Assembly (NCBI RefSeq): GCF_024347315.1
Contig: NZ_AP025460.1
Location: 2,170,001 to 2,234,000, forward strand
DNA length: 64,000 nucleotides
Source: Vibrio atlanticus
Lineage (GTDB): Bacteria; Pseudomonadota; Gammaproteobacteria; Enterobacterales; Vibrionaceae
Direction of reading: 5' to 3'
The notes under the pieces were generated by a model. It worked only from the letters and a program-made list of their open reading frames with translations. It searched no databases and was not told the origin of the DNA. The position numbers were made by a program, and so were the translations under genes. Each line of letters opens with the position of its first letter. Position 1 is the first letter of the stretch. Of the stretch, positions 40,263-57,326 are shown piece after piece.

Positions 40263-40328
40263 TCGACGGTCATTAAATAGACGTTCGTAATCAATGGTCG
40301 TTAAATAAAACCAGCGATTCAAATACTA

Positions 40329-40347
40329 AAAGGCTCCACAACTGTGG
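40329..40347. terminator. Left half of the split trpA/slipin bidirectional terminator, with 12-bp target duplication
   Basis: AAAAGGCTCCACA is followed by ACTGTGG and then the insertion sequence. The right half (CCACAACTGTGG, AGCC, T run) is at 41850-41871. Removing the element and one copy of CCACAACTGTGG (40336-40347 or 41850-41861) restores a 12-bp stem, AAAGGCTCCACA with TGTGGAGCCTTT, with an A/T-flanked two-base apex. Confidence 0.9.
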
Positions 40348-41849
40348 CTGTCTCTTGATCACAAGTCTGGTTAATCAAGAGACTTAGCGAGTTCATACCC
40401 TTCAAGGATGGTTTGTAACCTAAACCATCCTTGCCATAACGTCTTTATAGAAGCACGACCTGTTCGCTTGGTATTCTTCCAACCACCTAACCGAGCAATA
40501 CCGTTGTAAGCCCATGATATATTAGGCGCTTCTTTCGGTAGTTTTTTGCTCTCCAACTTGAGCCACATTAACTTCCACGCTTTGCCTTTTAATACCTGCT
40601 CACAACTGGTCTTAGATAACTCGTCTGATTCATTCATAAACCTCAATTGGAGTAACCGAGTCGCGATAAAAGCCAAAACGACGCTGAGCCTTTCTAAGTT
40701 ATCCTTACTTTGCATTCTCAGTTGCTCAACTTCAGTCCCTTCACTTTTCCAGACTTTATGAAAATCTTCTATTAGCCAGCGCCGCTCATAATAACTGACG
40801 ATTTTGAGTGCCTCTTCCTTGCTCGTTATCGGCTCTGAAGTCAGTAAGTGCCATGCGAGCTTATTACCACTCTCTCCTTGTTCTATACATCCCACGTAGT
40901 AAAGCGGAATGTTATCGAACTCTTTCTTGTTAGCAGGAGACTTGAGTGTCACGGGGGCATATTTGATATCTAAATGAGCCTTGCGAGCTTTACGACCGCC
41001 TTTTTGCGGTATTTCGAGCACTTTCTCTCCGGCTGATAACAGGGTAGAGGCATAGCTATAAAGACGATTATCATGCTCTTCAATACAGCGGCTTTGCATT
41101 GAGCGAACGAGGAACCTTTGTTGTTGCTCTCGCTTGTAAGTGAGGTATTCAAATAGGTCGGCTTCTCTATCGCACACAGAAATGACATCCGAAATTTTAT
41201 CGCCAAGTCGCTCAGCGACATGGCGAGAGGCTTGTTCCCACTTATAACTTTCTTTCTCTTTGTATGGTCGAGTCGCATGCTGGTGCCTTTGACCTCGCTT
41301 TTCTATATCACGAGTCCAGCGCTGTTGTTCAATTAAACCAATAACAGATTGAGTGTCGGGAGCAAAAAGTAAGGTTGAGTGTACGAACATGGCGCGATGT
41401 CGATTGCCTTGATTGGAGTGCCCGAGTTCATCTCGAATGCTGCGATGGGAGTAACTGAGAGAAGTGGTGTCTTCTAAGGCAAGAAGTGTCTGTTGCTCTA
41501 ATGCTTCTTGTGCAGTGACATAAAAACCCGCCTCTGCGATATCTTCTGCTTTGATTTGCTCATTACGGATGAAGCGATAAGCCCCTTCCATTTCAGCAGG
41601 GGAGATAATGAGTTTCGAGACGGGTACGCCAGGTTGCTCGGCCAGTGAGGCTGCGAGAGCAACGAGTCTTTGAGTGCGTCTAGGGTCATTAAGGTGGGCT
41701 TGACCGAACTGTTTTTGTGCCCAAAGGGTTGGCTCTATATAGGTCATGATAATCATCCTTGTCATTGCTTAGATGATCAGATCATGAAACCTAAAAATAG
41801 TTCAAAAAAATCCCCAAGCGTGGCTTAGGGATTTGTGTATAAGAGACAG
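40348..41849 (-). mobile_element. Tn5/IS50-like insertion sequence, copy 1 (1502 bp, IS4 family)
   Basis: The ends are CTGTCTCTTGATCACAAGT (left) and, read inward from the right, CTGTCTCTTATACACAAAT. The element carries one transposase gene on the minus strand and is flanked by a 12-bp duplication, CCACAACTGTGG. The left end has a GATC like the IS50 inside end. The right end shares its first 16 bases with the Tn5 mosaic end. On the minus strand, an internal hairpin with a T run (41804-41834) precedes the transposase promoter. A second, nearly identical copy lies at 55771-57273. Confidence 0.95.
40371..41747 (-). CDS. IS50-group transposase, copy 1
   Basis: This 458-residue DDE transposase is closely related in layout to Tn5 Tnp. 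It has DPRRTQRL, EGAYRFIRN and LEDTTSLSY with the first Asp. CDREADLFEYL carries the second Asp. YYERRWLIEDFHKVWKSEGTEVEQL is the Y(2)R(3)E(6)K signature with the catalytic Glu. The ATG at 41747 has AAGGA 8 bases upstream and is preferred; two ATGs lie 9 and 18 bases further upstream in frame. Two adjacent GATC sites (41775-41783) overlap a plausible promoter (TTGAAC, 18 bp, TCTGAT), so Dam methylation should limit expression as in IS50 and IS10. The gene is intact. Confidence 0.95.
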   Translation of the reverse strand: MTYIEPTLWAQKQFGQAHLNDPRRTQRLVALAASLAEQPGVPVSKLIISPAEMEGAYRFIRNEQIKAEDIAEAGFYVTAQEALEQQTLLALEDTTSLSYSHRSIRDELGHSNQGNRHRAMFVHSTLLFAPDTQSVIGLIEQQRWTRDIEKRGQRHQHATRPYKEKESYKWEQASRHVAERLGDKISDVISVCDREADLFEYLTYKREQQQRFLVRSMQSRCIEEHDNRLYSYASTLLSAGEKVLEIPQKGGRKARKAHLDIKYAPVTLKSPANKKEFDNIPLYYVGCIEQGESGNKLAWHLLTSEPITSKEEALKIVSYYERRWLIEDFHKVWKSEGTEVEQLRMQSKDNLERLSVVLAFIATRLLQLRFMNESDELSKTSCEQVLKGKAWKLMWLKLESKKLPKEAPNISWAYNGIARLGGWKNTKRTGRASIKTLWQGWFRLQTILEGYELAKSLD

Positions 41850-41892
41850 CCACAACTGTGGAGCCTTTTTTATTACTTTTCATTTGAGACAA

Positions 41893-42690
41893 TCACTCAT
41901 CGGCTTTCATCGCTTTCTTGATTGCAGCCTCATTGAGTGTTGCTTTGATCGGGTCCGTTATCTTCTCCACTAAATCGATGGGCATTGGGAAGATGATGGT
42001 GGAGGTTCTTTCGTTAGCCACCTCGGTTAACGTTTGCATATATCGCAATTGAATGGCGTTGGGCGCTTGATTTAGCACTTCGGCCGCTTCACGTAATTTA
42101 GTCGATGCTTCTAACTCACCCGTCGCATGTATCACCTTGGCTCGACGAGAACGTTCCGCCTCGGCTTGTTTAGCAAGAGCACGCACCATACTGTCATCAA
42201 GGTCGACATGCTTAATCTCGACATTGGCAATCTTGATCCCCCAGTTATCGGTGTGTTGGTCCAGTATCGCTTGTAAATCTCTATTGAGCTCTTCACGCTC
42301 AGACAGCAGCTCATCCAACTCATGCTGACCGAGCACCGAACGCAGCGTTGTTTGTGAAAGTTGGCTAGTCGCTTCAAGGTAATTCTCAACGTTGTTGATC
42401 GCCATCTTCGGATCCAGCACTCGGAAGTACACCACGGCATTCACCTTAACCGACACGTTATCGCGTGTGATCAAATCTTGTGTTGGAACATCCAAAACGA
42501 TAGTTCGTAGATCCACTCGCACAATTTGTTGGATAAAAGGAATGATGATAATCAACCCCGGTCCTTTGACGCCGTAAAAGCGCCCGAGGAAGAACACCAC
42601 TGCACGCTCGTATTCACGCAGCACTCTGAACATGCTGGCTATCAACAAGATAACGAGCACGATGACAATACCTATAGTGTGTATAAACAT
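41893..42690 (-). CDS. Slipin (stomatin/prohibitin-like SPFH protein)
   Basis: This 265-residue protein has one N-terminal membrane helix (about 5-22) and an SPFH domain ([47 protein letters not shown]). A coiled helical region ([17 protein letters not shown]) follows. Slipins form membrane-microdomain scaffolds, and bacterial slipin genes commonly neighbour an NfeD protease, which is the next gene here. It is a probable cleavage partner of that protease, by analogy with Pyrococcus PH1511/PH1510. Confidence 0.9.
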
Positions 42691-42772
42691 AACCGCCCCC
42701 TAATGGTAACGATGGATAAGCAATTAATAATTCAATAACGTTTGTACTAGCATTCCACGCTAACAGTCCGCG

Positions 42773-44179
42773 CTAGCTAGATTTCGATGATGTATCATCG
42801 GGCAGCGCCTCCACATCCAACAACAACCCAGTCAGTTTGGTCACTCTAATAAGCTGCCCCGCTTGCAATTCACTCGCGCATTTGGCTTGCCAGATCTCAC
42901 CTTCAACCAATACTCGACCCGCACCGGGGAAGCCGCTTACCACTTTCCCAGTGTCGCCGACAACCGCTTCCATCCCCGTAGTCACCGGCTTGTTTCTCAC
43001 TCGAACTAACATGGATATAGTGACGACGATAAAGGCGACAGAGAACAAACTGATCCCGATAATTAGTGGCAATGCGATTTGATAACCCGGCACCTCAGTA
43101 TCCATCAGCATGACCGAGCCCAATGTGAATGCGGCGACGCCACCCAAACCGAAGATACCAAAGCTCGGGCTAAAGGCCTCAGCCACCATTAAGGCAATTC
43201 CAAGCAGAATCAACGCAAGGCCTGCGTAACTCACCGGCAGCATTTGTAAGGAGTACATTGCCAATAACAGACAGATACCGCCCAATACACCCGGTAAGCC
43301 GACGCCAGGGTTATAGAACTCAAGCAACAAACCATAGATACCGATTAGCATCAGAATGTAAGCAACATTTGGATTAGTGATCACCGAAAGCAGACTAAAG
43401 CGCCAGTCTTGTTCTCGCTCGACAAAAGCCACATCACTCAGTTGAACTTCCTGACTGACACCGTTGATGGTGATGACGCGTCCGTTGCTCAGTTCAACCA
43501 ATTGCTGAAGGTCGCTGGCAATAAAATCAATCACGTTAAGCGAGAGTGCATTCTTAGAATCCAAACTTGCGGCCTCTCGCACCGCTTTTTCTGCCCATTC
43601 TTCATTACGGTTGTGTAACTTGGCCAAACTGACAATGTAAGCCGCTGCATCATTGATGACTTTCTTCTCCATCGCAGTGGTGGCTTTTACTTGGTCTGAG
43701 TTCTCTTGTTTCGTTGCGTCTTGCTCACTCGCAGAAGTGCTGTCGTCTTTATTGGTATCGTCTTGAGGCGACAAAGGATTAGTCGGCGCTTTGCCACCGC
43801 CAAGAGACACAGGAGTTGCTGCACCTAGATTAGTTCCGGGCGCCATAGAAGCGATGTGGCTAGCGAGTAGAATATAGGTTCCGGCGCTCGCTGCTCGTGA
43901 ACCCGCAGGCCCAACCCAAGTAGCGACTGGGATCGGTGAGGTGGTGATGGATCGAATAATATCACGCATCGACGAATCTAACCCGCCAGGCGTGTTCATT
44001 TTCAAAATGATGAGTTTTGCTTGCTCGTCGTGAGCTTGTTCTATTTCTCTAGTGAGGTAATCACTGGTCGCCGGACCTATCCCTCCGTTCACCTCAATCA
44101 CCCAGACATCATCGGCCTGAGCGAACACAGAGCTGAACAACAGAAGAAACGCAAACAAGTACTTTAATATAAAAGTCAT
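42773..44179 (-). CDS. NfeD-family membrane serine protease (ClpP-class)
   Basis: This 468-residue protein starts with a signal sequence ending near FAQA. An extracytoplasmic ClpP-like domain follows with MNTPGGLDSSMR and the nucleophile Ser in GSRAASAGTYI; the catalytic Lys is probably in MEKKVINDAAAYI. A low-complexity Asp/Ser/Gln insert lies near residue 130. Four to five membrane helices and a soluble C-terminal NfeD OB-fold complete it. It is transcribed together with the slipin, 82 bases apart. The family cleaves hydrophobic stretches of stomatins. Confidence 0.9.
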   Translation of the reverse strand: MTFILKYLFAFLLLFSSVFAQADDVWVIEVNGGIGPATSDYLTREIEQAHDEQAKLIILKMNTPGGLDSSMRDIIRSITTSPIPVATWVGPAGSRAASAGTYILLASHIASMAPGTNLGAATPVSLGGGKAPTNPLSPQDDTNKDDSTSASEQDATKQENSDQVKATTAMEKKVINDAAAYIVSLAKLHNRNEEWAEKAVREAASLDSKNALSLNVIDFIASDLQQLVELSNGRVITINGVSQEVQLSDVAFVEREQDWRFSLLSVITNPNVAYILMLIGIYGLLLEFYNPGVGLPGVLGGICLLLAMYSLQMLPVSYAGLALILLGIALMVAEAFSPSFGIFGLGGVAAFTLGSVMLMDTEVPGYQIALPLIIGISLFSVAFIVVTISMLVRVRNKPVTTGMEAVVGDTGKVVSGFPGAGRVLVEGEIWQAKCASELQAGQLIRVTKLTGLLLDVEALPDDTSSKSS

Positions 44180-44649
44180 AGCCCCTCTCCTTACAACTGA
44201 GATGCTAGATAGACGTTTTATTTAAAGCGCAGAGGTAACATCTTGGTAATAGATAGATACCTTAAGCATAGTTCAGGCTAAATTTCCCACAACAAGCTTT
44301 ATCATTTTCAGCCAGATTAATCTGTATAGAAAAAACGCAAAGATATGGATTAAATGTTAACAAAAGTAAGCAAGCGACGCGAAGCACAATCTATTCACAA
44401 AGCGATCAATAAAAACACTTTTATAAATCCTACAAATAACCGAACAACGAAAAACCAAAGCAAACGTTTGCCTTGGTGTAAAAAAACATCTAATAGCGAT
44501 TCACCTGCTGTTTTTAAGAGACTTTCACCTCTGCTCATATTGATAAATGTAAAGGATACGTGTAAAACTCTTCGCGAAATATTTATCCAATGGCGCATCG
44601 TTCATTGGTGAGTAATTCTGGGATTTTTATATTTAGTAGCACAGAGGTT
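44180..44649. promoter_or_regulatory. Divergent intergenic region NfeD / symporter
   Basis: This AT-rich 470-base spacer should carry both promoters. One small frame (44354-44611, 85 residues, very basic) lies here with a weak ribosome binding site and no recognisable domain; I do not call it a gene. No RNA gene is seen. Confidence 0.5.
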
Positions 44650-45909
44650 ATGGAAGTGTTAAAAGAAAAGAGTTTACTAAGCAATATTGGCATTCAAGTC
44701 GTTATTGCAATGATCATCGGTACCGCAGTCGGCGCGATGATGGGTGACAGCGCAACAATGTTCGCTCCACTGGGTGCTATCTTCATCAATTTGATCAAGA
44801 TGCTGGTTATTCCTCTAGTCGCAGTTGCCCTAATTTCAGGTGCTGCTGGTCTAGGTAATAGTTCATCGGCTGGTAAAGTCGGTGTAACAACACTGGGTTA
44901 CTTTGCACTAACGTCTGCACTTGCTGTAGCACTCGCGCTTGTAATGGGTGAAGTGTTCGAACCGGGTCGTGGTATCGATGTGTCTGGCGTTGAGGGAATG
45001 TTCTCTTCAGAATACGCTGCGAAAGGCGAACTTCCAACGTTCTGGGCAACCATCACTGGCATGATCCCTACCAACGTTTTCCAATCACTGAATGAAGCAA
45101 ACATTCTGCAAATTCTCGTTTTCTGCTTATTCTTTGGTATTGCGATTTCTAAACAAGCAAAAGAGAAACGTGACCCTATCATCAACGGTGTAAATGCTAT
45201 CGTTGACGCTATGGTATGGATGATCAACAAAGTTATGATCATTGCACCACTTGGCGTATTCGGCCTAATGGCTGAAGCAGTAGGTACGTTTGGTTTTGGC
45301 GCGCTTATGGTCGTGTTCAAGCTGTTCATTGTTTACATCGCTGCGATTCTTATCTTCGGCTTTGTTGCTTACCCACTGATGATTCAAATCTTCACTAAGA
45401 CTTCAGCTAAGAAGTTCCTAGTGGCAATGAAGAAGCCTCAAGCGGTTGCACTATCAACAGCATCTTCAATGGCGACACTACCAGTAACAATGGAAACGGT
45501 AGAGAAAGAACTTGGCGTTCGCAACTCTACGGCTTCATTCGTTCTGCCACTTGGTGCGACGATCAACATGTCTGGTAACGCAATTTACTACGGCCTAGTT
45601 GCTATCTTCTTCGCACAGCTGTTCAACATCGACCTATCTATGGGTGCTTACGTTGCTATCATCGTAACGTCTACGCTAGGCGCAGTTGGTCAAGCTGGTG
45701 TTCCAGGTCCTTCTTTCCTAGTGGTTGCGGTTCTTCTAGCAGCTGGTATCCCTATCGAAGGTCTACCTCTGCTGTTCGCTCTAGACCGTATCTTCGACAT
45801 GATCCGTACTGCCCTTAACATCACTGGTGATGCAGCATGTGCGGTAATCGTTGATTCTCTAATCAAAGACGAAGTGAAAGAAGCTGAGCTAGAGAAACAA
45901 CAAGCTTAA
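44650..45909 (+). CDS. Dicarboxylate/amino acid:cation symporter (SLC1/GltP-like)
   Basis: This 419-residue protein of the DAACS family has about eight membrane helices and two re-entrant hairpins. The first hairpin motif is STASSMATLPVTME. The last helix signature is DRIFDMIRTALNITGDA. In glutamate carriers the sequence before hairpin 2 reads NMDGT and binds sodium and substrate; here it is NMSGN, so the coupling ion or substrate may differ. I list the ATG at 44650, but its GAGG is only two bases away. The GTG at 44656 (spacing eight) is an equally good start. Confidence 0.85.
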   Translation: MEVLKEKSLLSNIGIQVVIAMIIGTAVGAMMGDSATMFAPLGAIFINLIKMLVIPLVAVALISGAAGLGNSSSAGKVGVTTLGYFALTSALAVALALVMGEVFEPGRGIDVSGVEGMFSSEYAAKGELPTFWATITGMIPTNVFQSLNEANILQILVFCLFFGIAISKQAKEKRDPIINGVNAIVDAMVWMINKVMIIAPLGVFGLMAEAVGTFGFGALMVVFKLFIVYIAAILIFGFVAYPLMIQIFTKTSAKKFLVAMKKPQAVALSTASSMATLPVTMETVEKELGVRNSTASFVLPLGATINMSGNAIYYGLVAIFFAQLFNIDLSMGAYVAIIVTSTLGAVGQAGVPGPSFLVVAVLLAAGIPIEGLPLLFALDRIFDMIRTALNITGDAACAVIVDSLIKDEVKEAELEKQQA

Positions 45910-45935
45910 ACTTCTTAGAAACCTAAAGACCAAAA

Positions 45936-45951
45936 AGCCACTCATTTGAGT
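45936..45951. terminator. Left half of the split symporter/methyltransferase bidirectional terminator, with 12-bp target duplication
   Basis: AAAAAGCCACTCATTTGAGT precedes the IS4-like element, and ACTCATTTGAGTGGCTTTTTT follows it at 47394-47412. One copy of the 12-bp duplication ACTCATTTGAGT joined to both flanks gives the stem AAAAAGCCACTC with GAGTGGCTTTTT and loop ATTT. Confidence 0.92.
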
Positions 45952-46009
45952 TAACACTGATCATTTAAGCATTTTCCTGATCAGTTGAACGATCCTACAG
46001 ATGGTTAAC

Positions 46010-46046
46010 AATACCCTTAAGCACTTTTGTTTAAGGGTATTTTTTT
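46010..46046 (+). terminator. Terminator-like hairpin abutting the IS4-group transposase start
   Basis: An 11-bp perfect stem (AATACCCTTAA with TTAAGGGTATT), a 10-base loop and seven T end directly at the ATG at 46047. It should stop transcripts entering from the symporter side. It also leaves no room for a Shine-Dalgarno sequence. Confidence 0.88.
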
Positions 46047-47384
46047 ATGCTGTCACACTGGTTAATCGATGTTGACGATTTTGCTAATCCAGAATCTCTT
46101 TCTTTGTTCCAAAAAGACCTTCCGCTAGATTGGATAAACCAAGCTTTATCTGAAACGAACAAAGCGAGCATGCGCCGTAGAAAGTTACCTGCCGAACTTG
46201 TTGTATGGTTAGTCGTTGGTATTGGTCTATATCGAGATAGACCGATTACTGATGTACTCGATAAACTCGACCTCAAATTGTCTAATTCATTGGGTGAAAC
46301 AATTGCACCTAGTGCAATTCCTCAGGCAAGAAAACGCCTCACCGCTAAGCCTTTAAAGTCATTATTCTCAATCACAGCAAAGCACTGGACACAGTCGGAA
46401 GATGCGGGTGATAAATGGAATGGTTTGAGCCTATTTTCAATCGATGGCACACAGTTTAGAACTCACGACAATCCAAGCTTAGCTGAGCATTATCAATATG
46501 TTTACTACCGAAAAGACAGGCACACTGAATATCCAATCGTTCGAATGTGCGCACTCACATCACTACGGAGTCGACTTATTCATGATGTGGCTTTTGGGGA
46601 AAGTTCTAAAGGTGAAATCAGCTATGCAAAAGATTTAATTTCATCAGCAGTCCCGAATTCATTGACCATTTTTGACCGTTGCTACTTGAGCGCAGAACTT
46701 ATGCTTAACTGGCAACAAGAGCATGGGACAAGTCACTGGATGACGCCAATAAAGTCGAATGTGAAATATGAAACCATCGAGCAACTCGATGATGATGGGC
46801 GAGATCTGATTGTAGAGATGAAAGTCTCTCCACAAGCTAGAAAGCAAGACCCGAGCCTCCCGGAAACGTGGAAAGCTAGGCTGGCTCTATACCCCGATGA
46901 TGGTGAACAACAACCCAATCATATACAAGGGCTGCTGACTTCTCTAACAGATAGAAAATACAGTTTAAAATCATTATTAGATGTGTACTTCGAAAGGTGG
47001 GAAATCGAGAATAGTTATGGCGAGATTAAGCATGACATGCTTGACGATGAAATTCTGCTCCGCAGTCAATCTGTAGAGGGTGTAGAGCAAGAGATATGGG
47101 GTATCCTTATCGCGTATAACTTAATCCGCCTGGAGATTAGCCGAATAGCAAAAGAGGCTGAAGTCTCACCACTTAGGATAAGCTTTACGATGGCACTTCG
47201 AGATATTCAAGATGAGCTAATGTGGTGTGCTATCGCCTCCCCAGGTTCGGTTCCCAAAAAGCTGCGAGCTATGAGAGAGCGAGTGAAACGTTATATTTTG
47301 CCCGAAAAACAAAAACGGCCCAAAGATAGGACCGTTCGTTTTAGTAAGACTCGCTACACTGTGCGATCTAAACACCTTAAATGA
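46047..47384 (+). CDS. IS4-group transposase
   Basis: This 445-residue DDE transposase follows the E. coli IS4 protein along its length, as far as I can recall that sequence. It has RRRKLPAELVVWLVVGIGLYRD, APSAIPQARKRL and FSIDGTQFRT with the first Asp. TIFDRCYLSAELM carries the second Asp, and YFERWEIENSYGEIKHDML carries the Glu in the Y(2)R(3)E(6)K signature. The gene is intact. Its stop codon lies within the right terminal repeat. Initiation without a visible Shine-Dalgarno site suggests low expression. Confidence 0.95.
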   Translation: MLSHWLIDVDDFANPESLSLFQKDLPLDWINQALSETNKASMRRRKLPAELVVWLVVGIGLYRDRPITDVLDKLDLKLSNSLGETIAPSAIPQARKRLTAKPLKSLFSITAKHWTQSEDAGDKWNGLSLFSIDGTQFRTHDNPSLAEHYQYVYYRKDRHTEYPIVRMCALTSLRSRLIHDVAFGESSKGEISYAKDLISSAVPNSLTIFDRCYLSAELMLNWQQEHGTSHWMTPIKSNVKYETIEQLDDDGRDLIVEMKVSPQARKQDPSLPETWKARLALYPDDGEQQPNHIQGLLTSLTDRKYSLKSLLDVYFERWEIENSYGEIKHDMLDDEILLRSQSVEGVEQEIWGILIAYNLIRLEISRIAKEAEVSPLRISFTMALRDIQDELMWCAIASPGSVPKKLRAMRERVKRYILPEKQKRPKDRTVRFSKTRYTVRSKHLK

Positions 47385-47446
47385 TAGGTGTTGACTCATT
47401 TGAGTGGCTTTTTTACTTTCAAACGTTGATATTTGTTTACTCTAAA

Positions 47447-48412
47447 TTAAGCGTCTTCAGAAACGTTAATTTTAAATCTCAGGACTTTCAAACTTGAATC
47501 GAGGTCGACATCGACAAACTCAGGTGGATTATCTAAACGCTCAATAAACTCAACACTTGGTGCTTCTTCTGCCATCGTCTCAATCAAGAAGTTTGGTGAC
47601 ACTGCTGGTGAGTTAACACAAGCAATCACTTCACCACCTTCGGTTAGAAGCTCAGGCAAACGACGTAAGATCTTTTTGTAGTCTTTAGTCAGTGCAAAGC
47701 TGCCTTTTTGAAACGAAGGCGGATCGATAATAACCAGCTCGTATGGGCCACCCTTCTTGATTTTTCCCCACGACTTAAAGATGTCGTAGCCAAGGAAGTT
47801 CACCGAGCGCATGTCATGCTCATTCAAGCGGTGGTTATCACGGCCTTTATTCAGTGATCCGCGTGACATGTCTACGTTCATGCATTGTCGAGCGCCACCC
47901 GCAATCGCCGCGACAGAGAAGCCACAAGTGTATGCGAACAAGTTAAGAACGTTCTTATCCTTAGCATTATCTTGTACCCACTGACGACCATTACGCATGT
48001 CTAGGAACAGACCGAAGTTCTGATTACGGCCAATGTCTAGTTGGTACTTAAGCCCATGTTCAACCACGACTGGTGAGTCGTTCAATTCACCCCACAACAC
48101 TTCAGAGGGCGCGCCATCAGCATAACGGTGTTGCAGCACAATGCTTGTGCCCTGTTTTGCTTGCCAGATATCTTTCGTGGTCAGGTTAACCAATCCAGCT
48201 TTAAGAGATGATAAGAACGCTTGGTCCACTTCTTTAAACACGTTAACCAATAACTGTCCATCAACCCAATCACAAGTGAGTTGATCTAGGCCGGGCCAAA
48301 ACTTGCCACGCCCGTGAAAAATACGACGTAGTTCATTCGGCACTTCATTCAATTGCTGTTCAATATGACTAAAAAACAGAGGTAAAGCTGATGCTTCCAT
48401 TATTTCACTCAC
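47447..48412 (-). CDS. Class I SAM-dependent methyltransferase (RlmI/RlmK-like)
   Basis: The 321-residue protein has the SAM-binding motif VLNLFAYTCGFSVAAIAGG, the acidic NVDMSRGSLNKGRDNHRLNEH and the catalytic-type motif IIDPPSFQKGSF. These are typical of the COG1092 group that includes the 23S rRNA cytosine methyltransferase RlmI and the C-terminal half of RlmKL. It lacks the PUA and THUMP domains of those enzymes. An RNA substrate is likely but not proven. Its start overlaps the stop of the pseudouridine synthase gene by four bases. Confidence 0.82.
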   Translation of the reverse strand: MSEIMEASALPLFFSHIEQQLNEVPNELRRIFHGRGKFWPGLDQLTCDWVDGQLLVNVFKEVDQAFLSSLKAGLVNLTTKDIWQAKQGTSIVLQHRYADGAPSEVLWGELNDSPVVVEHGLKYQLDIGRNQNFGLFLDMRNGRQWVQDNAKDKNVLNLFAYTCGFSVAAIAGGARQCMNVDMSRGSLNKGRDNHRLNEHDMRSVNFLGYDIFKSWGKIKKGGPYELVIIDPPSFQKGSFALTKDYKKILRRLPELLTEGGEVIACVNSPAVSPNFLIETMAEEAPSVEFIERLDNPPEFVDVDLDSSLKVLRFKINVSEDA

Positions 48413-49107
48413 TTAGTGTTTAGCTTTGGCCACGTTAATGACCAAGGTTCAAGCCAACTGTCTAAACCATTAGACACGATCTCTTGATGCCATTTCTCAC
48501 CCAAAGAGTCGAGGTTTCTTGGATCGCAGACATATTCGTAGGCTTGTGATTGATAGGTAAATCGAATCGCGAAGGCATGCAGATAGCCTCTGTCAGCCTC
48601 GTTCGATGGATTGTAAATAGGATCACCAACAATAGCCGAGCCAATGGACTTCATCGCGACACGGATCTGATGAGTTCGCCCCGTATAGGGTTTACATAAA
48701 AGTAGACGCTCACCGGGTTCAGCCGTTGCAGATAAAAATTGGGTAATCGCTGGGTTTTCTTTGGTTGTCAGCAGCTTCCAGCTTGAGCGTCGTGAACGCT
48801 CCATATCTCCTGAGATCAGCCCCTGCTTTTTCTTCGGCTTCTTGGAGCCTATCGCAAGGTAGTACTTCTCTACTTCACGCTTTGCAAACAACTGTGAAAG
48901 CTCACTCGCTGCCGGGGTATTTTTTGCCAGCAGTAGAATTCCTGACGTCATTTTATCGAGACGATGGACTAAATATAGCTTCGGCTCATTGATTGCCTTA
49001 GCAACTTCTTGCAATAACATCGTATCACCATCGTCTTTATGGACGCTGACGCCTGGATGTTTGTTTATAAGTAAAAAATCAGAGTGATTCAGAAGAATGT
49101 CGAACAT
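48409..49107 (-). CDS. RluA-family pseudouridine synthase
   Basis: The 232-residue protein has the RluA catalytic motif HRLDKMTSGILLLAKN with the nucleophilic Asp, and the GRTHQIRVAMKSIGSAIVGDPIY segment. It has no S4 domain, so it resembles the short TIGR01621-type members. I take the ATG at 49107, where the domain begins and a GGAG lies 10 bases upstream; the open frame runs a further 38 codons without similarity. The RNA target is unknown. It is paired with a methyltransferase gene in a two-gene RNA-modification operon. Confidence 0.88.
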   Translation of the reverse strand: MFDILLNHSDFLLINKHPGVSVHKDDGDTMLLQEVAKAINEPKLYLVHRLDKMTSGILLLAKNTPAASELSQLFAKREVEKYYLAIGSKKPKKKQGLISGDMERSRRSSWKLLTTKENPAITQFLSATAEPGERLLLCKPYTGRTHQIRVAMKSIGSAIVGDPIYNPSNEADRGYLHAFAIRFTYQSQAYEYVCDPRNLDSLGEKWHQEIVSNGLDSWLEPWSLTWPKLNTK

Positions 49108-49298
49108 GTAAAGGCTAGCTCCATTGTAGAACGTGGAGTATACCGTGTCTGAATCCAGATTCCAGCTACGAAAAAGCCCAACGAGTTCAATAAACATTGA
49201 ATCGTTGGGCTTATGTTTCAATAGGCAACTTTCACTGGGAAGTCTTTAATCAATTCGCTCTAAGCTTATGTTCTAGACTTATGATCCAGCTCTAAGCT

Positions 49299-50915
49299 CT
49301 AAGCAAGTTTGAACTTACCTACTAAGCCTTCAAGTTCGGCAACTTTAGCATTCAAACCTGATGTGTTCTCAGAGCTGCGAGTCGCTAACTGTAATGACTG
49401 TTCAGAGATATCACTGATTGCCGTAATATCCGCTGCGATTTCTTTTGTCACCGCTGTCTGTTCTTCTGCCGCAGTCGCAATTGAGTTAACCATGCTTTGT
49501 ACGTTGCCCGCACCGCTAACAATTGCTTCTAGAGCCGATACCGCCCCAGTACTTTGCTCTACACCAATTTCAACTAAACGACAGTTGTCTTGAGTGTAAG
49601 TCACCGCTTCTTGAGTGCCAGATTGAATAGATTGGATGATACCAGACACTTCTTGTGTTGCTTTAGTCGTTCTCTCCGCTAGCGCTCGTACTTCATCAGC
49701 TACCACGGCAAAACCACGACCGAACTCACCAGCACGCGCAGCTTCAATAGCCGCGTTCAGAGCCAAGAGGTTGGTTTGTTCTGCGATATCTTCGATTACC
49801 TTGATAACACTGCCAATCTGCTCGCCATGTGAACCCAGCGTGTTCATTTGTAACGACATGTCGCTCATTTGAGTAGACACTTGTTGGATGCTCGCAACCA
49901 TCTCCACGATCACTTTACGACCGTCTTCTGCAGACGTTTCTGAGCGGCGCGCTTCTTCATAAGTAGAAGTACCTTGTTGCGCTACTTCAGAAATGGTTAA
50001 GCTTAGTTCTTCTGCCGCAGTCGCAATCAATGTCGCTTTATCTGCTTGAGCAGAGGCGCCAGATACGATGTCGTGGCTGATTGATGATAGCTCACCAGTA
50101 ACGGATTGAACTTGGGTAGTCACTGATGAGATAGAACCGAGGAGATCGACCAATGACTTTTGCATCTGGTTGATCGATTGAGCAAGGTCAGCCAACTCAT
50201 CACCAGAATCATCAACAATGTCACCTGCCGTTAGATCACCATTTGCTACGCGTCGTGCAACTTGCTCTACACGAGTTAAGCGATTAGTAATAGAGCTAGA
50301 CAATACAAACGCAATTACGCAACCAAACACAATCGCAACCGCAGTCAACACCATAATCGTGCGTTCGATTGTAATAAACGAATCCGTTAGTGTTAGCAGA
50401 GCTCGCTCTGTATCAGCAATCTCACTTTCAGATGCTTGATCAAGCAAATTTTCAATCGGGATAAGATTATTCTCATACAAAGAGCGAAGCTGCTGGATAT
50501 TTGATAACAATGCAGTTTCGTCATTAAGCATAGGTACGAGCTTCGACTCAAACTCTTGAGTAAAGCGCCCCATTAGCTCTTCAATTCGCTGAACACGACG
50601 ATGGTCCTCTGAGCCTTTACTCTCTAAACGCTTTGCTTCTTCAATTGCTTGAGAAAATTGAGTCTTGTTAGCTCGATAATCATTGAGCGCATTACCGCCC
50701 TGAACAACCGCGCCCAAAGCATCACGGTAAACATCACCAGCTTCATCGATCAATATAAGGTAGGTAACAGTTCCTGGAACATCATCCAGTCTAATTTCAT
50801 CAGAGCTCTCGTGAGCCCCAATCACTTCTATCGATACAACCCCTACCAACGTGACAAGCACCGCCAATATAGATCCAAAACCCAAATATAGTTTTTTTCT
50901 CACTGACAATTTCAC
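49299..50915 (-). CDS. Methyl-accepting chemotaxis protein
   Basis: This 538-residue chemoreceptor has membrane helices at about 9-32 and 184-206. Between them lies a helical periplasmic domain of four-helix-bundle type. A HAMP domain follows, then a long cytoplasmic coiled coil with the conserved tip [22 protein letters not shown] and [17 protein letters not shown]. There is no C-terminal NWETF-like pentapeptide, so adaptation enzymes would bind elsewhere. The ligand cannot be inferred. It is monocistronic. Confidence 0.95.
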
Positions 50916-51036
50916 AGAACACCTACCTAAAAATAAATACAGGCCGATATAGCCTAACCGAAAGATATATCGGCCACCACACGGATAACTTTAGGGGACG
51001 ATGTTTTTATTTCTCGAAAAATAATAAGTACGTCGA

Positions 51037-51065
51037 ATAAAAAACGGGAGCCAATGGCTCCCGCT
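51037..51065 (-). terminator. Terminator after the NSS transporter gene
   Basis: On the minus strand GCGGGAGCCA pairs with TGGCTCCCGT around a two-base centre and is followed by T residues. Confidence 0.88.
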
Positions 51066-51104
51066 TATCAATTAACTTTAGTTTGCGATTAGAGTTTCTA
51101 AGAA

Positions 51105-52538
51105 TTATAGCTTCTTAGAAATAAGCGCAGAGCCGGCAATGATACCAATACCTAGTAGCATGATTGCACCTTTACCGCTGTCGAAGCCAGAAGAGATGCC
51201 CATGAACGCTACGATAGCGATAGCTACTGGGATGATGTACTTAACGAGTGTGTACCATAGACCGAATAGAGGGAAAGATACTTCACCGTCGTTAGTGATT
51301 TCTTTCTCTAGGTCAGCACGGTTTAGTCTCCAACCAGCGAAGATACATACCAACATACCGCCAACTGCTAGGAAGATCTTATCCGTTAGTAGGTCGAAGA
51401 TATCGAATGCACCAGTACCAAACAGTGTTGGACCAAAGCCACCAAGAGATAGAGAAGCGAAGATACATAGAATCGCCATTACGACACTTGCAGACAGTAC
51501 AGCTGTTACACGCTTCATGCCTTTCTCATCGATTAGGTACGAAACAACAACTTCAAGTAGAGATACTGAAGAAGTCAGTGCCGCAACACTTAGACCAACG
51601 AAGAACATAAGAGCAAATAGAAGACCAACTACGCCGCCCATTTCAGCGAATAGCTGAGGAACAACAACGAATACTAGACCAGGACCTGCTGCAGGTTCCA
51701 TACCGAATGCGAACATTGCAGGGAACATTGCAACACCAGCTAGGATAGCAACGCCTGTATCCATCGCCGTAACCATAGCTGTAGTTTGAACTAGGTTCTC
51801 TTTCTTCTTAAGGTAAGAACCGTAAGTCAACATACAACCCATACCAAGAGATAGTGAGAAGAATGCTTGACCCAGTGCAGCTAGGATTACACCGCTGTCT
51901 ACTTTAGAGAAGTCAGGGCTGAATAGGAATTCAAGACCAGCCATCGCGCCCGGAAGCATTAGGCCTTTGATTGATACCACGATAAGGATGATGAAAAGAA
52001 GCGGCATCAGAATCTTACCCGCTTTCTCAATACCGCCAGAAATACCCTTCATAACGATGACAACGTTAAGTAGTAAGTATAGGCCCATCCACATTAGTGG
52101 CTGAACTGGGTTTGAGATAAAGCCACCAAAGCTGTCGCCAATTGCTTCAGGTGCATCTAGTAGACCACCAGCAATTTTACCGATGTATGCGATAGACCAG
52201 CCACCTACTACAGGGTAGAAACCCATGATAAGTAAACCACTGACTACGCCAATAACACCAGCGAACGTCCAGCGACGGTCAGTTGATTTAAATGCACCCA
52301 CTGCTGATTTTTGCGTATGACGGCCAATCGCAAATTCAGTCAGCATCACACTGAAACCGATGAAGATTACAAAAAACAGATAAATTGCAACGAATGCACC
52401 GCCGCCACTTTCACCTGCTGTGTATGGGAATTTCCAGATGTTACCTAAGCCAACAGCAGAACCTGCTGCAGCCATTACGAATCCTAATTTCGAACCCCAG
52501 GTATCGCGGGGTGTAGTGGTTGTATTACTAGTAGCCAC
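51105..52538 (-). CDS. Sodium-dependent transporter, NSS/LeuT family
   Basis: This 477-residue protein of the neurotransmitter:sodium symporter family has about 11-12 membrane helices. The helix 1 signature is GSAVGLGNIWKFPYTAGESGGGAF, where the unwound GLGN segment binds sodium and substrate. Bacterial members carry amino acids such as tryptophan, tyrosine or leucine, but the substrate here cannot be assigned. It is monocistronic. Confidence 0.93.
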   Translation of the reverse strand: MATSNTTTTPRDTWGSKLGFVMAAAGSAVGLGNIWKFPYTAGESGGGAFVAIYLFFVIFIGFSVMLTEFAIGRHTQKSAVGAFKSTDRRWTFAGVIGVVSGLLIMGFYPVVGGWSIAYIGKIAGGLLDAPEAIGDSFGGFISNPVQPLMWMGLYLLLNVVIVMKGISGGIEKAGKILMPLLFIILIVVSIKGLMLPGAMAGLEFLFSPDFSKVDSGVILAALGQAFFSLSLGMGCMLTYGSYLKKKENLVQTTAMVTAMDTGVAILAGVAMFPAMFAFGMEPAAGPGLVFVVVPQLFAEMGGVVGLLFALMFFVGLSVAALTSSVSLLEVVVSYLIDEKGMKRVTAVLSASVVMAILCIFASLSLGGFGPTLFGTGAFDIFDLLTDKIFLAVGGMLVCIFAGWRLNRADLEKEITNDGEVSFPLFGLWYTLVKYIIPVAIAIVAFMGISSGFDSGKGAIMLLGIGIIAGSALISKKL

Positions 52539-52905
52539 GTTTACTCCAAACTTTTGTGTTATGTGATGTTGTATTTTGCTTTGTGTGGCGTCATTAAAAG
52601 ATAAGGTGTATACAATAATTTACACCATTAAAAGATTTGATTGACGCTCGTTATCTAGCAAGTAAACCAGTTTAAGAATACAATTGGAAGCCCGAACCGT
52701 ATATATTTCGTTATCAATGTAAATCTTTATGGTTAAATGCCGATTTTTCATACAAAACAATTGCATTCGTCTTAAGTTAACTAAAACTTAACAACTTTAA
52801 CCTGTTTACAGCTTTTGCTCTATTTTGTAAATAGTTGATTCCTTAAATTCCCATATCCGTAAAATAGCATTACTATCTAAGTGTCTCTTTTTTCGAGTAT
52901 TCAAT
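52539..52905. promoter_or_regulatory. Divergent intergenic region NSS transporter / cls
   Basis: This very AT-rich 367-base spacer has no gene. A weak candidate for cls is TTGATT at 52835 with TAAAAT at 52860, but the 19-bp spacing is long. No other structure is seen. Confidence 0.4.
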
Positions 52906-54360
52906 GTGGAAAAGCTCTACCATTTTTTAACTTTAGCTTCTGTCGCTTTATACTGGGTCCTTGTCGCCGGTGTGACTTTTCGTGTCGTACTAAAACGACG
53001 CTCTGTCAGCGTTTCTCTCGCATGGTTGATGGTTATCTACATTATCCCTATTGTTGGCGTCGCTTGTTACTTCCTTTTCGGAGAGCTAAATCTCGGTAGA
53101 AAGAGGGCTGAGCGTGCACATCGCATGTTTACGCCTTTTGGTGATTGGTTCCGCCAATTAAATGATTGCCAAGTCCACCTTCCAGGTAAAGTCGGCTCTC
53201 CTATCCACAAAATTGATGAGCTTTGTAACAATCGGATGGGCATTCCAGCTCTCAGCGGAAACACACTTTCACTGCAAGCTTCTCCTAATGAAATCCTACA
53301 CGCAATTATCGAAGATATAGAAAACGCCCAGACTAGTATCAAAATGGTTTTCTATATTTGGCACCCCGGCGGCTTAACTGATTCCGTTGCTTCCGCACTT
53401 ATTCGAGCTGCAAAACGTGGTGTCGATGTTAAAGTTTTACTCGATTCTGCAGGTAGCCCGCGTTTTTTCAAAAGTCACTGGCGTTCAATGATGAAAGACG
53501 CTGGCGTTCACGTTGTCCAAGCATTAGAGGTTAGTCCTTGGCGTATTTTCTTACGCCGTTTAGATCTAAGGCAGCACCGGAAGATCATCGTGATTGATGA
53601 GTCCATCGCCTATACCGGGTCAATGAATATGGTAGATCCAGCTCATTTCAAACAGAGCTCAGGGGTCGGCCAATGGATTGATGTCATGGTTCGCGTCACT
53701 GGGCCAACCGTTAACGTGTTGTCAGCAATTCATGGTTGGGATTGGGAAGTGGAAACCGGTGAACGCATTCTTCCTGATTTACCAGAGTGCCCGGTTGAAG
53801 AAATAATGACGCATCATCCAGTTCAAGTAGTGCCATCTGGGCCGGGCATGCCGGAGTATTTGATTCTGCAAGTTCTTACTATTGCGATTAATCAAGCAAA
53901 CCATTCAGTTCGTATTACAACACCCTACTTTGTACCGAGTGCCGACTTATTAGAAACACTCAAAATGACGGCACAACGTGGTGTCAGCGTAGAATTAATC
54001 ATTCCACATAACAACGATTCATTAATGGTTAAATGGGCTTCTCGCGCCTTCTATACCGAACTGCTTGAAGCCGGAGTGAAGATATATGAGTTTTACGGCG
54101 GGCTTCTTCACACCAAATCGGTAGTGATTGATGAAGAGTTTTGCTTAATCGGAACGGTCAATATCGACATGCGCAGCCTATGGCTTAACTTCGAAGTAAC
54201 GCTAGCCGTTGATGATGTGCACTTCACCAAGCAACTGTTTGATTTGCAGCAATCCTATATTGAATCATCTCATCCAGTGGAATTGGAGCAATGGGAGCAG
54301 AGAAACCTACGCAACCGCTTCTTCGAAAGGTTGTTTTACTTATTCAACCCGCTGCTTTAA
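52906..54360 (+). CDS. cls: Cardiolipin synthase
   Basis: Cls condenses two phosphatidylglycerol molecules, or phosphatidylglycerol and phosphatidylethanolamine, into cardiolipin at the inner membrane. The 484-residue protein has two N-terminal membrane helices and two phospholipase-D HKD motifs: QHRKIIVIDESIAYTGSMN near residue 222 and LHTKSVVIDEEFCLIGTVN near 400. The length and helices match ClsA. It starts with GTG at 52906 and has only a weak ribosome binding site. pgsA, the source of phosphatidylglycerol, is at 21.7 kb. Confidence 0.94.
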   Translation: MEKLYHFLTLASVALYWVLVAGVTFRVVLKRRSVSVSLAWLMVIYIIPIVGVACYFLFGELNLGRKRAERAHRMFTPFGDWFRQLNDCQVHLPGKVGSPIHKIDELCNNRMGIPALSGNTLSLQASPNEILHAIIEDIENAQTSIKMVFYIWHPGGLTDSVASALIRAAKRGVDVKVLLDSAGSPRFFKSHWRSMMKDAGVHVVQALEVSPWRIFLRRLDLRQHRKIIVIDESIAYTGSMNMVDPAHFKQSSGVGQWIDVMVRVTGPTVNVLSAIHGWDWEVETGERILPDLPECPVEEIMTHHPVQVVPSGPGMPEYLILQVLTIAINQANHSVRITTPYFVPSADLLETLKMTAQRGVSVELIIPHNNDSLMVKWASRAFYTELLEAGVKIYEFYGGLLHTKSVVIDEEFCLIGTVNIDMRSLWLNFEVTLAVDDVHFTKQLFDLQQSYIESSHPVELEQWEQRNLRNRFFERLFYLFNPLL

Positions 54361-54543
54361 TTCCATCAATGCGTCCACCGCGGCTCATCACTCGCCGACT
54401 ATCGGATTTTAAACCTTTCACGATAAACGACGTGGAAGGTTAAAAAGCGAAAGAAAAGCGCAAAAACTCCCGCTCTGCTCTTGCTTTGAAGGCTATTGGC
54501 ATGTTTTAAATAGGACATAACCGATTGATAAGGAATTCACAGC

Positions 54544-55728
54544 ATGTCCGAGAACAAAACCACTAAACTGATCACTGCAGGTCGTGATAAGAAGTGGACT
54601 AATGGTGTCGTTAACCCACCAGTACAACGCGCTTCAACTGTCGTGTTCAACACAGTAGAAGAGAAACGCAAAGCGACCATTAACCGCGCTAACAAGACAC
54701 TTTTCTACGGACGCCGTGGCACCACGACTCATTTCGCATTTCAAGATGCAATGGTTGAAGTTGAAGGTGGTGCAGGTTGCGCACTTTACCCTTGTGGTAC
54801 GGCAGCCATCTCTAATGCCATCCTCTCTTTTGTTGAAACAGGTGACCATATTCTGATGGTCGATACCTGTTATGAACCCACTCGTGATTTCTGTGACACC
54901 ATAATGAAAAAGATGGGTGTAGAGACCACTTACTACGAGCCAACGATCGGTGAAGGTATCCAAGACCTTATTAAGCCAAATACTAAGGTTCTATTTACTG
55001 AATCTCCGGGTTCAGTCACCATGGAAGTTCAAGACATCCCAACACTCGCACGTATTGCCCATGAACATGACATCATTGTAATGCTCGATAACACGTGGGC
55101 GGCTGGTGTTAACTTCTCACCGTTCGATTTTGGCGTCGACATCTCAATTCAAGCGGCGACTAAATACATTGTTGGTCACTCTGATGTGATGCTAGGAACG
55201 GCGGTAGCCAACGAAAAATGTTGGGATCAACTGAGAGAGCAGAGTTACTTGATGGGACAGTGCGTATCTCCAGATGACGCTTATCTTGGTCTTCGCGGTA
55301 TTCGCACTCTTGACGTTCGACTTCGCCAACATGCTGAAAGCAGCCTAAAAGTAGCAAAGTGGTTAGAAACACGCCCTGAGGTTGACCATGTTCGTCACCC
55401 TGCCCTTGAGTCTTGTCCCGGTCATGAATTCTTCAAACGAGACTTCACTGGCGGTAATGGTTTGTTCTCTTTCGTTCTTAAGAACTCAAACACAAAAGCA
55501 ACGACTGCTCTGCTTGATGGTATGACGCACTTTAGTATGGGTTACTCATGGGGTGGATTTGAAAGTTTGATTCTAGCGAACGAACCGAGCAGCTTTAATA
55601 GCTTGAGAACGGTAGCGAACCCTAACTTCGAAGGAACCTTGATACGCGTTCATATCGGCTTAGAAGACGTCGATGACCTGATTGCGGATCTAGAAGCTGG
55701 ACTAGATCGTTACAACGCTCTGGTTTAA
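54544..55728 (+). CDS. metC: Cystathionine beta-lyase
   Basis: MetC cleaves cystathionine to homocysteine, pyruvate and ammonia in methionine synthesis. The 394-residue PLP enzyme has Lys207 in [14 protein letters not shown], the [15 protein letters not shown] segment, and [16 protein letters not shown] with the PLP-pyridine Asp. It matches E. coli MetC throughout, including [16 protein letters not shown] residues near the C-terminus. I could not find convincing tandem MetJ boxes upstream. Confidence 0.95.
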
Positions 55729-55753
55729 GTAAAACAATAAACAAGTTTCCACA

Positions 55754-55770
55754 AAAAGGCAGGGACAACC
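55754..55770. terminator. Left half of the split metC/toxS-like bidirectional terminator, with 9-bp target duplication
   Basis: AAAAAGGCAGGGACAACC precedes the second Tn5-like copy, and GGGACAACCTGCCTTTTTT follows it at 57274-57292. One copy of GGGACAACC joined to both flanks gives the stem AAAAAGGCAGG with CCTGCCTTTTT and loop GACAA. Confidence 0.92.
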
Positions 55771-57273
55771 CTGTCTCTTGATCACAAGTCTGGTTAATCA
55801 AGAGACTTAGCGAGTTCATACCCTTCAAGGATGGTTTGTAACCTAAGCCATCCTTGCCATAACGCCTTTATAGAAGCGCGACCTGTTCGCTTGGTATTCT
55901 TCCAGCCACCTAACCGAGCAATACCGTTGTAAGCCCATGATATATTAGGCGCTTCTTTCGGTAGTTTTTTGCTCTCCAACTTGAGCCACATTAACTTCCA
56001 CGCTTTGCCTTTTAATACCTGCTCACAACTGGTCTTAGATAACTCGTCTGATTCATTCATAAACCTCAATTGGAGTAACCGAGTCGCGATAAAAGCCAAA
56101 ACGACGCTGAGCCTTTCTAAGTTATCCTTACTTTGCATTCTCAGTTGCTCAACTTCAGTCCCTTCACTTTTCCAGACTTTATGAAAATCTTCTATTAGCC
56201 AGCGCCGCTCATAATAACTGACGATTTTGAGTGCCTCTTCCTTGCTCGTTATCGGCTCTGAAGTCAGTAAGTGCCATGCGAGCTTATTACCACTCTCTCC
56301 TTGTTCTATACATCCCACGTAGTAAAGCGGAATGTTATCGAACTCTTTCTTGTTAGCAGGAGACTTGAGTGTCACGGGGGCATATTTGATATCTAAATGA
56401 GCCTTGCGAGCTTTACGACCGCCTTTTTGCGGTATTTCGAGCACTTTCTCTCCGGCTGATAACAGGGTAGAGGCATAGCTATAAAGACGATTATCATGCT
56501 CTTCAATACAGCGGCTTTGCATTGAGCGAACGAGGAACCTTTGTTGTTGCTCTCGCTTGTAAGTGAGGTATTCAAATAGGTCGGCTTCTCTATCGCACAC
56601 AGAAATGACATCCGAAATTTTATCGCCAAGTCGCTCAGCGACATGGCGAGAGGCTTGTTCCCACTTATAACTTTCTTTCTCTTTGTATGGTCGAGTCGCA
56701 TGCTGGTGCCTTTGACCTCGCTTTTCTATATCACGAGTCCAGCGCTGTTGTTCAATTAAACCAATAACAGATTGAGTGTCGGGAGCAAAAAGTAAGGTTG
56801 AGTGTACGAACATGGCGCGATGTCGATTGCCTTGATTGGAGTGCCCGAGTTCATCTCGAATGCTGCGATGGGAGTAACTGAGAGAAGTGGTGTCTTCTAA
56901 GGCAAGAAGTGTCTGTTGCTCTAATGCTTCTTGTGCAGTGACATAAAAACCCGCCTCTGCGATATCTTCTGCTTTGATTTGCTCATTACGGATGAAGCGA
57001 TAAGCCCCTTCCATTTCAGCAGGGGAGATAATGAGTTTCGAGACGGGTACGCCAGGTTGCTCGGCCAGTGAGGCTGCGAGAGCAACGAGTCTTTGAGTGC
57101 GTCTAGGGTCATTAAGGTGGGCTTGACCGAACTGTTTTTGTGCCCAAAGGGTTGGCTCTATATAGGTCATGATAATCATCCTTGTCATTGCTTAGATGAT
57201 CAGATCATGAAACCTAAAAATAGTTCAAAAAAAATCCCCAAGCGTGGCTTAGGGATTTGTGTATAAGAGACAG
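55771..57273 (-). mobile_element. Tn5/IS50-like insertion sequence, copy 2 (1503 bp, IS4 family)
   Basis: This has the same ends and organisation as the copy at 40348-41849, flanked here by a 9-bp duplication, GGGACAACC (55762-55770 and 57274-57282). Compared by eye, the copies differ by four transitions clustered near the transposase 3' end and by one extra A in the poly-A/T run of the internal hairpin. Both are oriented with the transposase on the minus strand. Confidence 0.95.
55794..57170 (-). CDS. IS50-group transposase, copy 2
   Basis: This 458-residue DDE transposase differs from copy 1 at two residues near the C-terminus: IKALWQGWL here versus IKTLWQGWF. All catalytic motifs (LEDTTSLSY, CDREAD, YYERRWLIEDFHK) are present. 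The start at 57170 and the Dam sites at 57198-57206 correspond to those of copy 1. The gene is intact and probably active. Confidence 0.95.
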   Translation of the reverse strand: MTYIEPTLWAQKQFGQAHLNDPRRTQRLVALAASLAEQPGVPVSKLIISPAEMEGAYRFIRNEQIKAEDIAEAGFYVTAQEALEQQTLLALEDTTSLSYSHRSIRDELGHSNQGNRHRAMFVHSTLLFAPDTQSVIGLIEQQRWTRDIEKRGQRHQHATRPYKEKESYKWEQASRHVAERLGDKISDVISVCDREADLFEYLTYKREQQQRFLVRSMQSRCIEEHDNRLYSYASTLLSAGEKVLEIPQKGGRKARKAHLDIKYAPVTLKSPANKKEFDNIPLYYVGCIEQGESGNKLAWHLLTSEPITSKEEALKIVSYYERRWLIEDFHKVWKSEGTEVEQLRMQSKDNLERLSVVLAFIATRLLQLRFMNESDELSKTSCEQVLKGKAWKLMWLKLESKKLPKEAPNISWAYNGIARLGGWKNTKRTGRASIKALWQGWLRLQTILEGYELAKSLD

Positions 57274-57326
57274 GGGACAACCTGCCTTTTTTAGTTCGGT
57301 AAGCTCTTGGTGTAGAAGTTATATAA

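Follow-up and report, generated by a model that had tools for sequence, protein, structure and literature searches.

In a 64,000-nucleotide stretch of the Vibrio atlanticus genome (contig NZ_AP025460.1, positions 2,170,001 to 2,234,000; hereafter the window), three insertion sequences, two copies of a Tn5/IS50-like element (A) and one of an IS4-group element (B), each split a transcription terminator at its centre. Having followed both elements through this genome and their relatives through others, we conclude from the sequences of their sites that intrinsic terminators are almost certainly the target of both. The identity of the targets, the centring of the insertions, the near-fixed distance of the cuts from the flanking tracts, the variable stagger, the limit on the spacing between the cuts, the occurrence of the habit in relatives and an empty site were all directly observed. 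IS4-group elements and one Tn5-like clade share this habit of targeting terminators, which is real, strong and wider than first noted.

A re-reading of the window gave the same coordinates, element ends and duplications for the three insertions as an earlier, first-pass annotation; in each case the centre of the duplication falls on that of a hairpin which is preceded by an A-tract and followed by a T-tract. At site 1, between trpA and a slipin gene, the left half of the terminator (40328..40347) is made up of AAAA-GGCT and the first copy of the 12-bp duplication CCACAACTGTGG (40336-40347), and the right half (41850..41871) of the second copy (41850-41861), AGCC and TTTTTT. Element A lies between the halves on the minus strand (40348..41849; 1502 bp, ends CTGTCTCTTGATCACAAGT and CTGTCTCTTATACACAAAT) and encodes a transposase of 464 residues (40371..41765, minus strand) homologous to that of Tn5 over nearly its whole length. 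Site 2, between a symporter and a methyltransferase gene, has a left half (45932..45951) of AAAAA-GCC and the 12-bp duplication ACTCATTTGAGT (45940-45951), and a right half (47394..47414) of the other duplication copy (47394-47405), GGC and TTTTTT. It houses element B (45952..47393, plus strand; 1442 bp), whose transposase of 445 residues is encoded at 46047..47384 on the same strand. The second copy of A in the window (55771..57273, minus strand; 1503 bp) occupies site 3, between metC-like and toxS-like genes, where the left half (55753..55770) consists of AAAAA-GGCA and the 9-bp duplication GGGACAACC (55762-55770) and the right half (57274..57292) of its second copy (57274-57282), TGCC and TTTTTT.

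Copies of both elements and their flanks were collected throughout the 5.1-Mb genome, which contains 21 copies of A and eight full copies of B. As two copies of A (L011 and L012) form a tandem pair, A occupies 20 sites. The 17 copies with an exact duplication were scored; the tandem pair, L003 (the two flanks mismatch) and L016 (one extra base at one end) were set aside, although by eye their flanks are also halves of terminators. All 17 scoreable A sites and, by eye, seven of the eight B sites are split terminator hairpins. The four outermost base pairs are perfect in 16 of the 17 A sites and at least three of them are present in every one, whereas among 2000 shuffles in which right arms were swapped between sites the number of perfect sites averages 6.4 and never exceeds 13. 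With ties resolved towards zero, the duplication and the dyad share the same centre in 17/17 (offset 0), with a median of 11 pairs against six for the runner-up. For B, four perfect outer pairs are seen in five of eight sites and at least three in six; the centring is exact in six and half a base off in two, and a tract no more than 5 bp from the cut is present on both sides in six copies and on the left side in seven. The median RNA folding energy of 25 A and B sites is -20.1 as opposed to -7.9 for 1500 intergenic windows. Stems and loops differ among the 17 A sites, and the targets display the sequence features of intrinsic terminators, namely a G+C-rich hairpin followed by a T-tract, with one found intact in a sister genome.

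The position of the cut follows a simple rule. In element A, 16 of the 17 copies are cut 4 bp inward from the A-tract, 16 at the same distance inward from the T-tract and 15 at this distance from both; the copies off the rule (L013 and L014) retain the pairs, with one tract shorter or one base further away. The duplications are 8 bp (three copies), 9 bp (one), 10 bp (eight), 11 bp (three) or 12 bp (two) long. A set of 37 sites, comprising these 17 and 20 that we chose from close relatives, gives the half-site AAAG(G/C)C(A/T)|NC: position 2 is C in 37/37, position 4 is G in 36/37 and the second base of the duplication is C in 34/37, while positions 1 and 3 are variable and usually paired with their partner positions. 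In this set the duplication lengths cluster at one helical turn (10 bp in 19/37). In B, counting the copies of this genome together with those of a second genome, G017, most copies are cut 3-4 bp from the tracts, and all 20 have duplications of 10-13 bp.

The first-pass annotation had proposed the other copies of the elements as a check, and the outcome favours it: most of those examined, in this genome and in relatives, do sit in terminators. In G017, eight of the 12 B copies have perfect arms (shuffle maximum, six), with exact centring in nine and a shift of half a base in three. Across the order, 63 loci with relatives of B were tried, of which 49 had clear ends (47 distinct) and 14 had no resolved ends. 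Among the 47, four outer pairs are present in 33 and at least three in 39, as against a mean of 4.3 and a maximum of 11 perfect sites with swapped arms; 37 are exactly centred and 46 are within one base. For the type element, E. coli IS4, which has matches in 2659 E. coli genomes, we used a non-random sample of 19 loci (L304, L314-L331), namely K-12 and 18 that we picked from 60 spread matches, with one place taken per multi-copy record; these reduce to 10 distinct sites. By eye, seven of the 10 are hairpins flanked by a tract on one or both sides; they lie after glgP, at pdxK/crr, bamD/raiA and adhE/tdk, between a fumarase gene and fumC, near cspG and beside ISEcp1. No good hairpin is seen at the other three, namely the one in K-12 and those within yicI and paaE-like genes. 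The arms are perfect in six of 12 rows and have at least three pairs in eight, the best shuffle also reaching six.

A third IS4-group element of the V. atlanticus genome (L313, L427; coding match at about C1:3,165,200-3,166,500), with a transposase 42% identical to that of B, sits about one base off the centre of a tract-flanked hairpin with a 12-bp duplication. In G010, a 54%-identical relative (L191-L198) is found in terminators with a CCC stem base, where most cuts fall 4-5 bp from the tracts and most are two pairs below the loop. Sister elements of A in Photorhabdus thracensis (55% identical) have 8-9 bp duplications outside terminators and show no terminator targeting; several of their sites (L120-L125, L135) have C-runs on the left and G-runs on the right, which is possibly an ancestral target preference. 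Two distant Tn5-like elements from Bdellovibrionales (L151, L153) lie near the centre of a tract-less G+C palindrome, CCCCCGGGCATGCCCGGGGG. With labels set by eye, the terminator-targeting trait requires two changes on the tree, against a mean of 8.2 in shuffles.

The expectation for such geometry by chance was obtained from 800 kb of the V. atlanticus genome outside the elements, with intergenic regions defined by crude gene calls. Tracts 4 bp outside both cuts together with at least three of four outer pairs occur in 181 of 554,550 intergenic position-by-length combinations, or about 3 in 10,000, yet 15 of the 17 scoreable A copies have them. The earlier claim that the pattern is not accidental is thus borne out, and we give no credence to a coincidence of three insertions in one window, as most scoreable copies, across many genomes, show the pattern. 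A second possibility is that insertion is near-random and only harmless intergenic copies remain. Nearly all A sites and most B sites do fall between called genes, with an open frame touching one flank in L014 and L027. Nevertheless, no selection against damage to genes could place the remaining insertions at hairpin centres, and at two places the same orthologous terminator was hit by A in V. atlanticus and by B in G017 (L006/L273, L018/L266). We regard survivorship as highly improbable and reject it on the rarity of the observed geometry among intergenic combinations. The same 800 kb contains 3092 sites with just the tracts at the right distances, of which 318 have at least three of the four outer pairs, in contrast to 17/17 A sites. 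Therefore, tracts and spacing alone cannot explain the signal for A, and this candidate too was rejected.

What the transposases read in these terminators is a separate question. The first-pass annotation had suggested that they recognise a hairpin, a cruciform or the symmetry of the site. Its observation of dyad-centred insertion by two different transposases stands, but recognition of a hairpin or cruciform as such is not supported. On that account the transposase would capture an extruded hairpin or cruciform, or its dyad, and cut each strand a fixed distance above the stem base, with a stagger set by the length of the hairpin, which would produce the exact centring, the variable duplication length and the near-constant distance from the base. 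The pairing itself speaks for it: true partners pair at 0.985 against a mean of 0.786 for swapped partners among the A copies of V. atlanticus, at 0.959 against 0.553 among the relatives of A (13 rows set aside) and at 0.840 against 0.448 among the distant B elements, and pairing is kept while the stem sequences vary between elements and hosts. However, longer hairpins with the same base should then serve at least equally well. In a survey of 1.6 Mb of the genome, with a half-site derived from the occupied sites themselves, 72 free intergenic hairpins with the base AAAGNC...GNCTTT have 6 to 22 bp between the cuts; 36 fall at 8-12 bp, 33 above this range and three below. All 37 sites of A and its close relatives are at 8-12 bp (Fisher 5.5e-9 against the free hairpins; 5.3e-5 for the 17 V. 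atlanticus sites alone), and the spacings of 13-24 bp that account for 33/72 of the free hairpins are used in 0/37, which disfavours length-independent cruciform recognition.

Such a limit is unexpected for an extruded cruciform and expected for two half-sites one turn apart on duplex DNA, and it therefore favours half-sites, as does the clustering of the staggers at one helical turn. The pairing could be passively inherited, since 46 of 50 half-site matches have at least three of the four pairs. Further, the three of the 10 E. coli IS4 sites that have no good hairpin retain the tract arms, with AAA to the left and TTT to the right at 3-5 bp from the cuts, and so also favour a half-site reading. 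We accordingly consider that the symmetry of two half-sites probably accounts for the data better than hairpin or cruciform recognition, and infer that the readout is of duplex half-sites and not of an extruded hairpin; structure recognition is, in our assessment, an unlikely alternative, with roughly the weight of a one-in-four guess.

Several observations weigh against the half-site reading. In the 1.6 Mb, all nine free matches to the extended half-site are hairpins with four of four pairs, and 39/39 intergenic half-site matches have at least three of the four outer pairs, so that half-site sequence and hairpin are not fully separable in this genome. Hairpins with all four pairs make up 16/17 of the occupied A sites as opposed to 37/50 of the free half-site matches (8/16 in the smaller 800-kb sample); the difference is not significant (Fisher 0.10) and, if anything, slightly favours a role for pairing itself. 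Staggers ranging from 8 to 12 bp are more than one would expect a rigid dimer on B-form DNA to accommodate. In the B set of V. atlanticus (5/8 perfect) and the E. coli IS4 set (6/12 rows), the best swapped arms reach the same values, five and six, so that these small sets show no site-specific pairing by this test. The half-site was itself defined from occupied sites, and the evidence consists entirely of standing copies. One B copy, L027 (G000:C1:1753667-1755108), lies in a palindrome without A- or T-tracts, 1 bp from a called open reading frame (ORF).

The extended half-site is matched by 12 of the 17 scoreable A sites, a figure inflated by the derivation of the motif from these very sites. 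In the 1.6 Mb, nine free matches stand beside eight scoreable occupied ones, and L016 and the tandem pair also match by eye; about half of the best sites of A are thus taken. The tandem pair itself (L011/L012, G000:C1:1472772-1475785) consists of two copies of A in one terminator, separated by a copy of the duplication and one base, and stems either from a second insertion at the duplicated half-site or from tandem amplification. The mismatched flanks of L003 (G000:C2:566551-568053) each resemble half of a different terminator, the right one matching the surroundings of a site occupied in G120 (L185); from its flanks, this locus looks like a product of recombination between copies.

Recruitment of the transposase by transcription machinery pausing at the terminator, either RNA polymerase or a termination factor, would likewise direct insertions to terminators, and the targets are indeed terminators that mostly lie a few tens of bases past a called stop codon. 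However, the cut of A is symmetric on both strands to the base pair (offset 0 in 17/17), such coupling to transcription predicts neither the spacing limit nor the half-site preference, and IS4 is also found at sites inside genes with similar arms. We hold this explanation to be improbable.

Related genomes provide empty counterparts of the window sites. Downstream of trpA, the genome G011 (90% identical) has AAAAGGCTCCACAACTGTGGAGCCTTTTT, which is exactly the predicted empty site 1, intact; G005 and G006 have a near variant of it. The position was scanned in 13 relatives and a hairpin found in 11, the more distant ones having other sequences. In G011, G005 and G006 the terminator at site 3 is also uninterrupted; its stem base is unchanged and the loops differ. 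Hence, for sites 1 and 3, the earlier statement that removal of the element restores a terminator agrees with real empty sites, and the empty sites found in relatives carry the hairpin, so that this second check proposed by the first-pass annotation also comes out in its favour. There are also signs of repeated use of the same places. Pairs of A copies at matching flanks differ in their duplications (L008/L092, L019/L188, L020/L035 and L101/L102, as well as L011/L187 with one flank matched), which suggests independent hits, and the terminator after the metC-like gene is occupied by A in V. atlanticus and, with one flank matched, by the relative in G010 (L009/L196). Insertions at one and the same position in related species could hence arise in parallel, and shared insertion sites may be weak markers of descent.

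We propose that A and B would be site-selective insertion sequences whose natural target is a short bidirectional intrinsic terminator. Each transposase subunit would read one half-site, comprising an A-tract, three to four mostly G+C pairs, the cut and further preferred bases inside it, and the dimer would require a pair of them in inverted orientation at a spacing of roughly one helical turn (8-12 bp in A, 10-13 bp in B). Both could be supplied at the foot of a short terminator stem, which has the A-tract before it and the T-tract after it. The strands would be cut at near-fixed distances from both tracts; the half-site spacing would then set the stagger, and the apical part of the hairpin would be duplicated. 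The element would land between genes, mostly some tens of bases past a stop codon, and may substitute terminators near its own ends for the one it broke. We lean, by a little, to the joint proposition that terminator homing is general to the IS4 subgroup including E. coli IS4, that it was gained separately by the Tn5-like clade, that each active site is placed by its own A/T-tract half-site, with the half-site spacing setting the stagger over 8 to 12 bp, and that A already occupies roughly half of its best sites in the regions surveyed.

The genic setting was determined from crude ORF calls, with the tandem pair counted as one site. Convergent genes, between which all three window sites were said to lie, do flank those sites, but the setting was rejected as a rule because it applies to 14 of the 20 A sites and four of the eight B sites genome-wide; the rest are all between tandem genes and none between divergent ones. 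Free terminators of the same geometry (n=81) include 31 between convergent, 37 between tandem and three between divergent genes, and 10 inside called ORFs. The distance from a site to the nearest called ORF end is mostly 30-140 bp. The notion of a safe-site strategy holds to the extent that the target mostly spares genes; we infer that landing between genes could also benefit the elements.

A consensus scan detected terminator-like hairpins near the ends of both elements, which may take over from the broken terminator. In A, one with a T-run (57232..57258, minus strand) between the outer end and the transposase gene might block read-in from the right-hand gene. In B, one with a T-run just before the transposase gene (46010..46041, plus strand) might do so for the left-hand gene, and another near the right end (47313..47337, minus strand) faces the right-hand gene.

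The two transposases show no mutual resemblance by BLAST (E about 0.6). Residues 5-463 of the 464 of the A transposase align to the Tn5 transposase (1mm8_A, E 1.1e-79); the Tnp_DNA_bind domain scores above the cut-off, DDE_Tnp_1 barely above it (23.1 vs 23) and Dimer_Tnp_Tn5 slightly below it (25.6 vs 26.7 bits). The Y(2)R(3)E(6)K signature is present (Y326, R329, E333, K340) and invariant among aligned relatives. It is on this signature and the near-full-length homology that the likeness of A to Tn5/IS50 (IS4 family, subgroup IS50) is founded. Both ends of A start with CTGTCTCTT, as do those of its relatives, and presumably resemble the ends of Tn5/IS50. Tn5 itself makes 9-bp duplications with a weak target preference; A departs from this fixed length in its 8-12 bp duplications at terminators. 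The B transposase is linked to the IS4 subgroup, with E. coli IS4 as its type element, by the Nterm_IS4 and DDE_Tnp_1 domains, 33% identity to the E. coli IS4 transposase and the YREK signature (Y314, R317, E321, K328), again invariant among aligned relatives. Both elements share the IS4-family trait of a duplication of about one helical turn (8-12 bp in A; 10-13 bp in B, including G017).

These results turn an unexplained arm specificity of the IS4 family into a concrete rule, namely insertion into short bidirectional terminators, with each cut 3-4 bp inward from the A- or T-tract. They provide two transposases, one of them a Tn5 homologue, for the study of target reading and variable stagger, with non-targeting sister elements available for domain swaps. 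A terminator-directed transposase could also be of practical use for insertion outside genes.

The use of safe sites by mobile elements is familiar from attTn7, in the glmS terminator, and from group IIC introns, which insert at terminators; these rely on other protein machinery, on one site or on insertion beside the stem, with no dyad-centred staggered cut. Within the IS4 family, IS231A prefers inverted arms of G/C-runs with A-tract bending and makes 10-12 bp duplications; we know of no description of it as a terminator-targeting element. Specificity for target arms has been described in some IS4-subgroup elements and ISRm22 (De Palmenaer et al., 2008; PMC2266710), in an article whose main text does not contain the words terminator, symmetr-, attenuator or intergenic. 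To that specificity the present analysis adds the identification of the arms as the left and right sides of intrinsic terminators, cuts that are measured from the tracts and a spacing limit. A literature search over titles and the starts of abstracts, with few subscription journals covered, returned no report of terminator targeting by IS4- or Tn5-like elements. Mayaux and colleagues are said to have found IS4 in the attenuator of the pheST operon in 1984. ISRm22, of the IS4 family, is placed at the axis of palindromy of repetitive extragenic palindromes (REPs) (Tobes and Pareja, 2006; PMC1525189). Insertion into intergenic palindromes is the trait that A and B have in common with the elements that target REPs or palindromic units (IS1397, IS621, ISPpu9/10 and ISRm22). 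The two kinds of target probably differ: REPs are families of repeated sequences, and those of A and B are terminators with varied stems, set in a frame of A-tract and T-tract.

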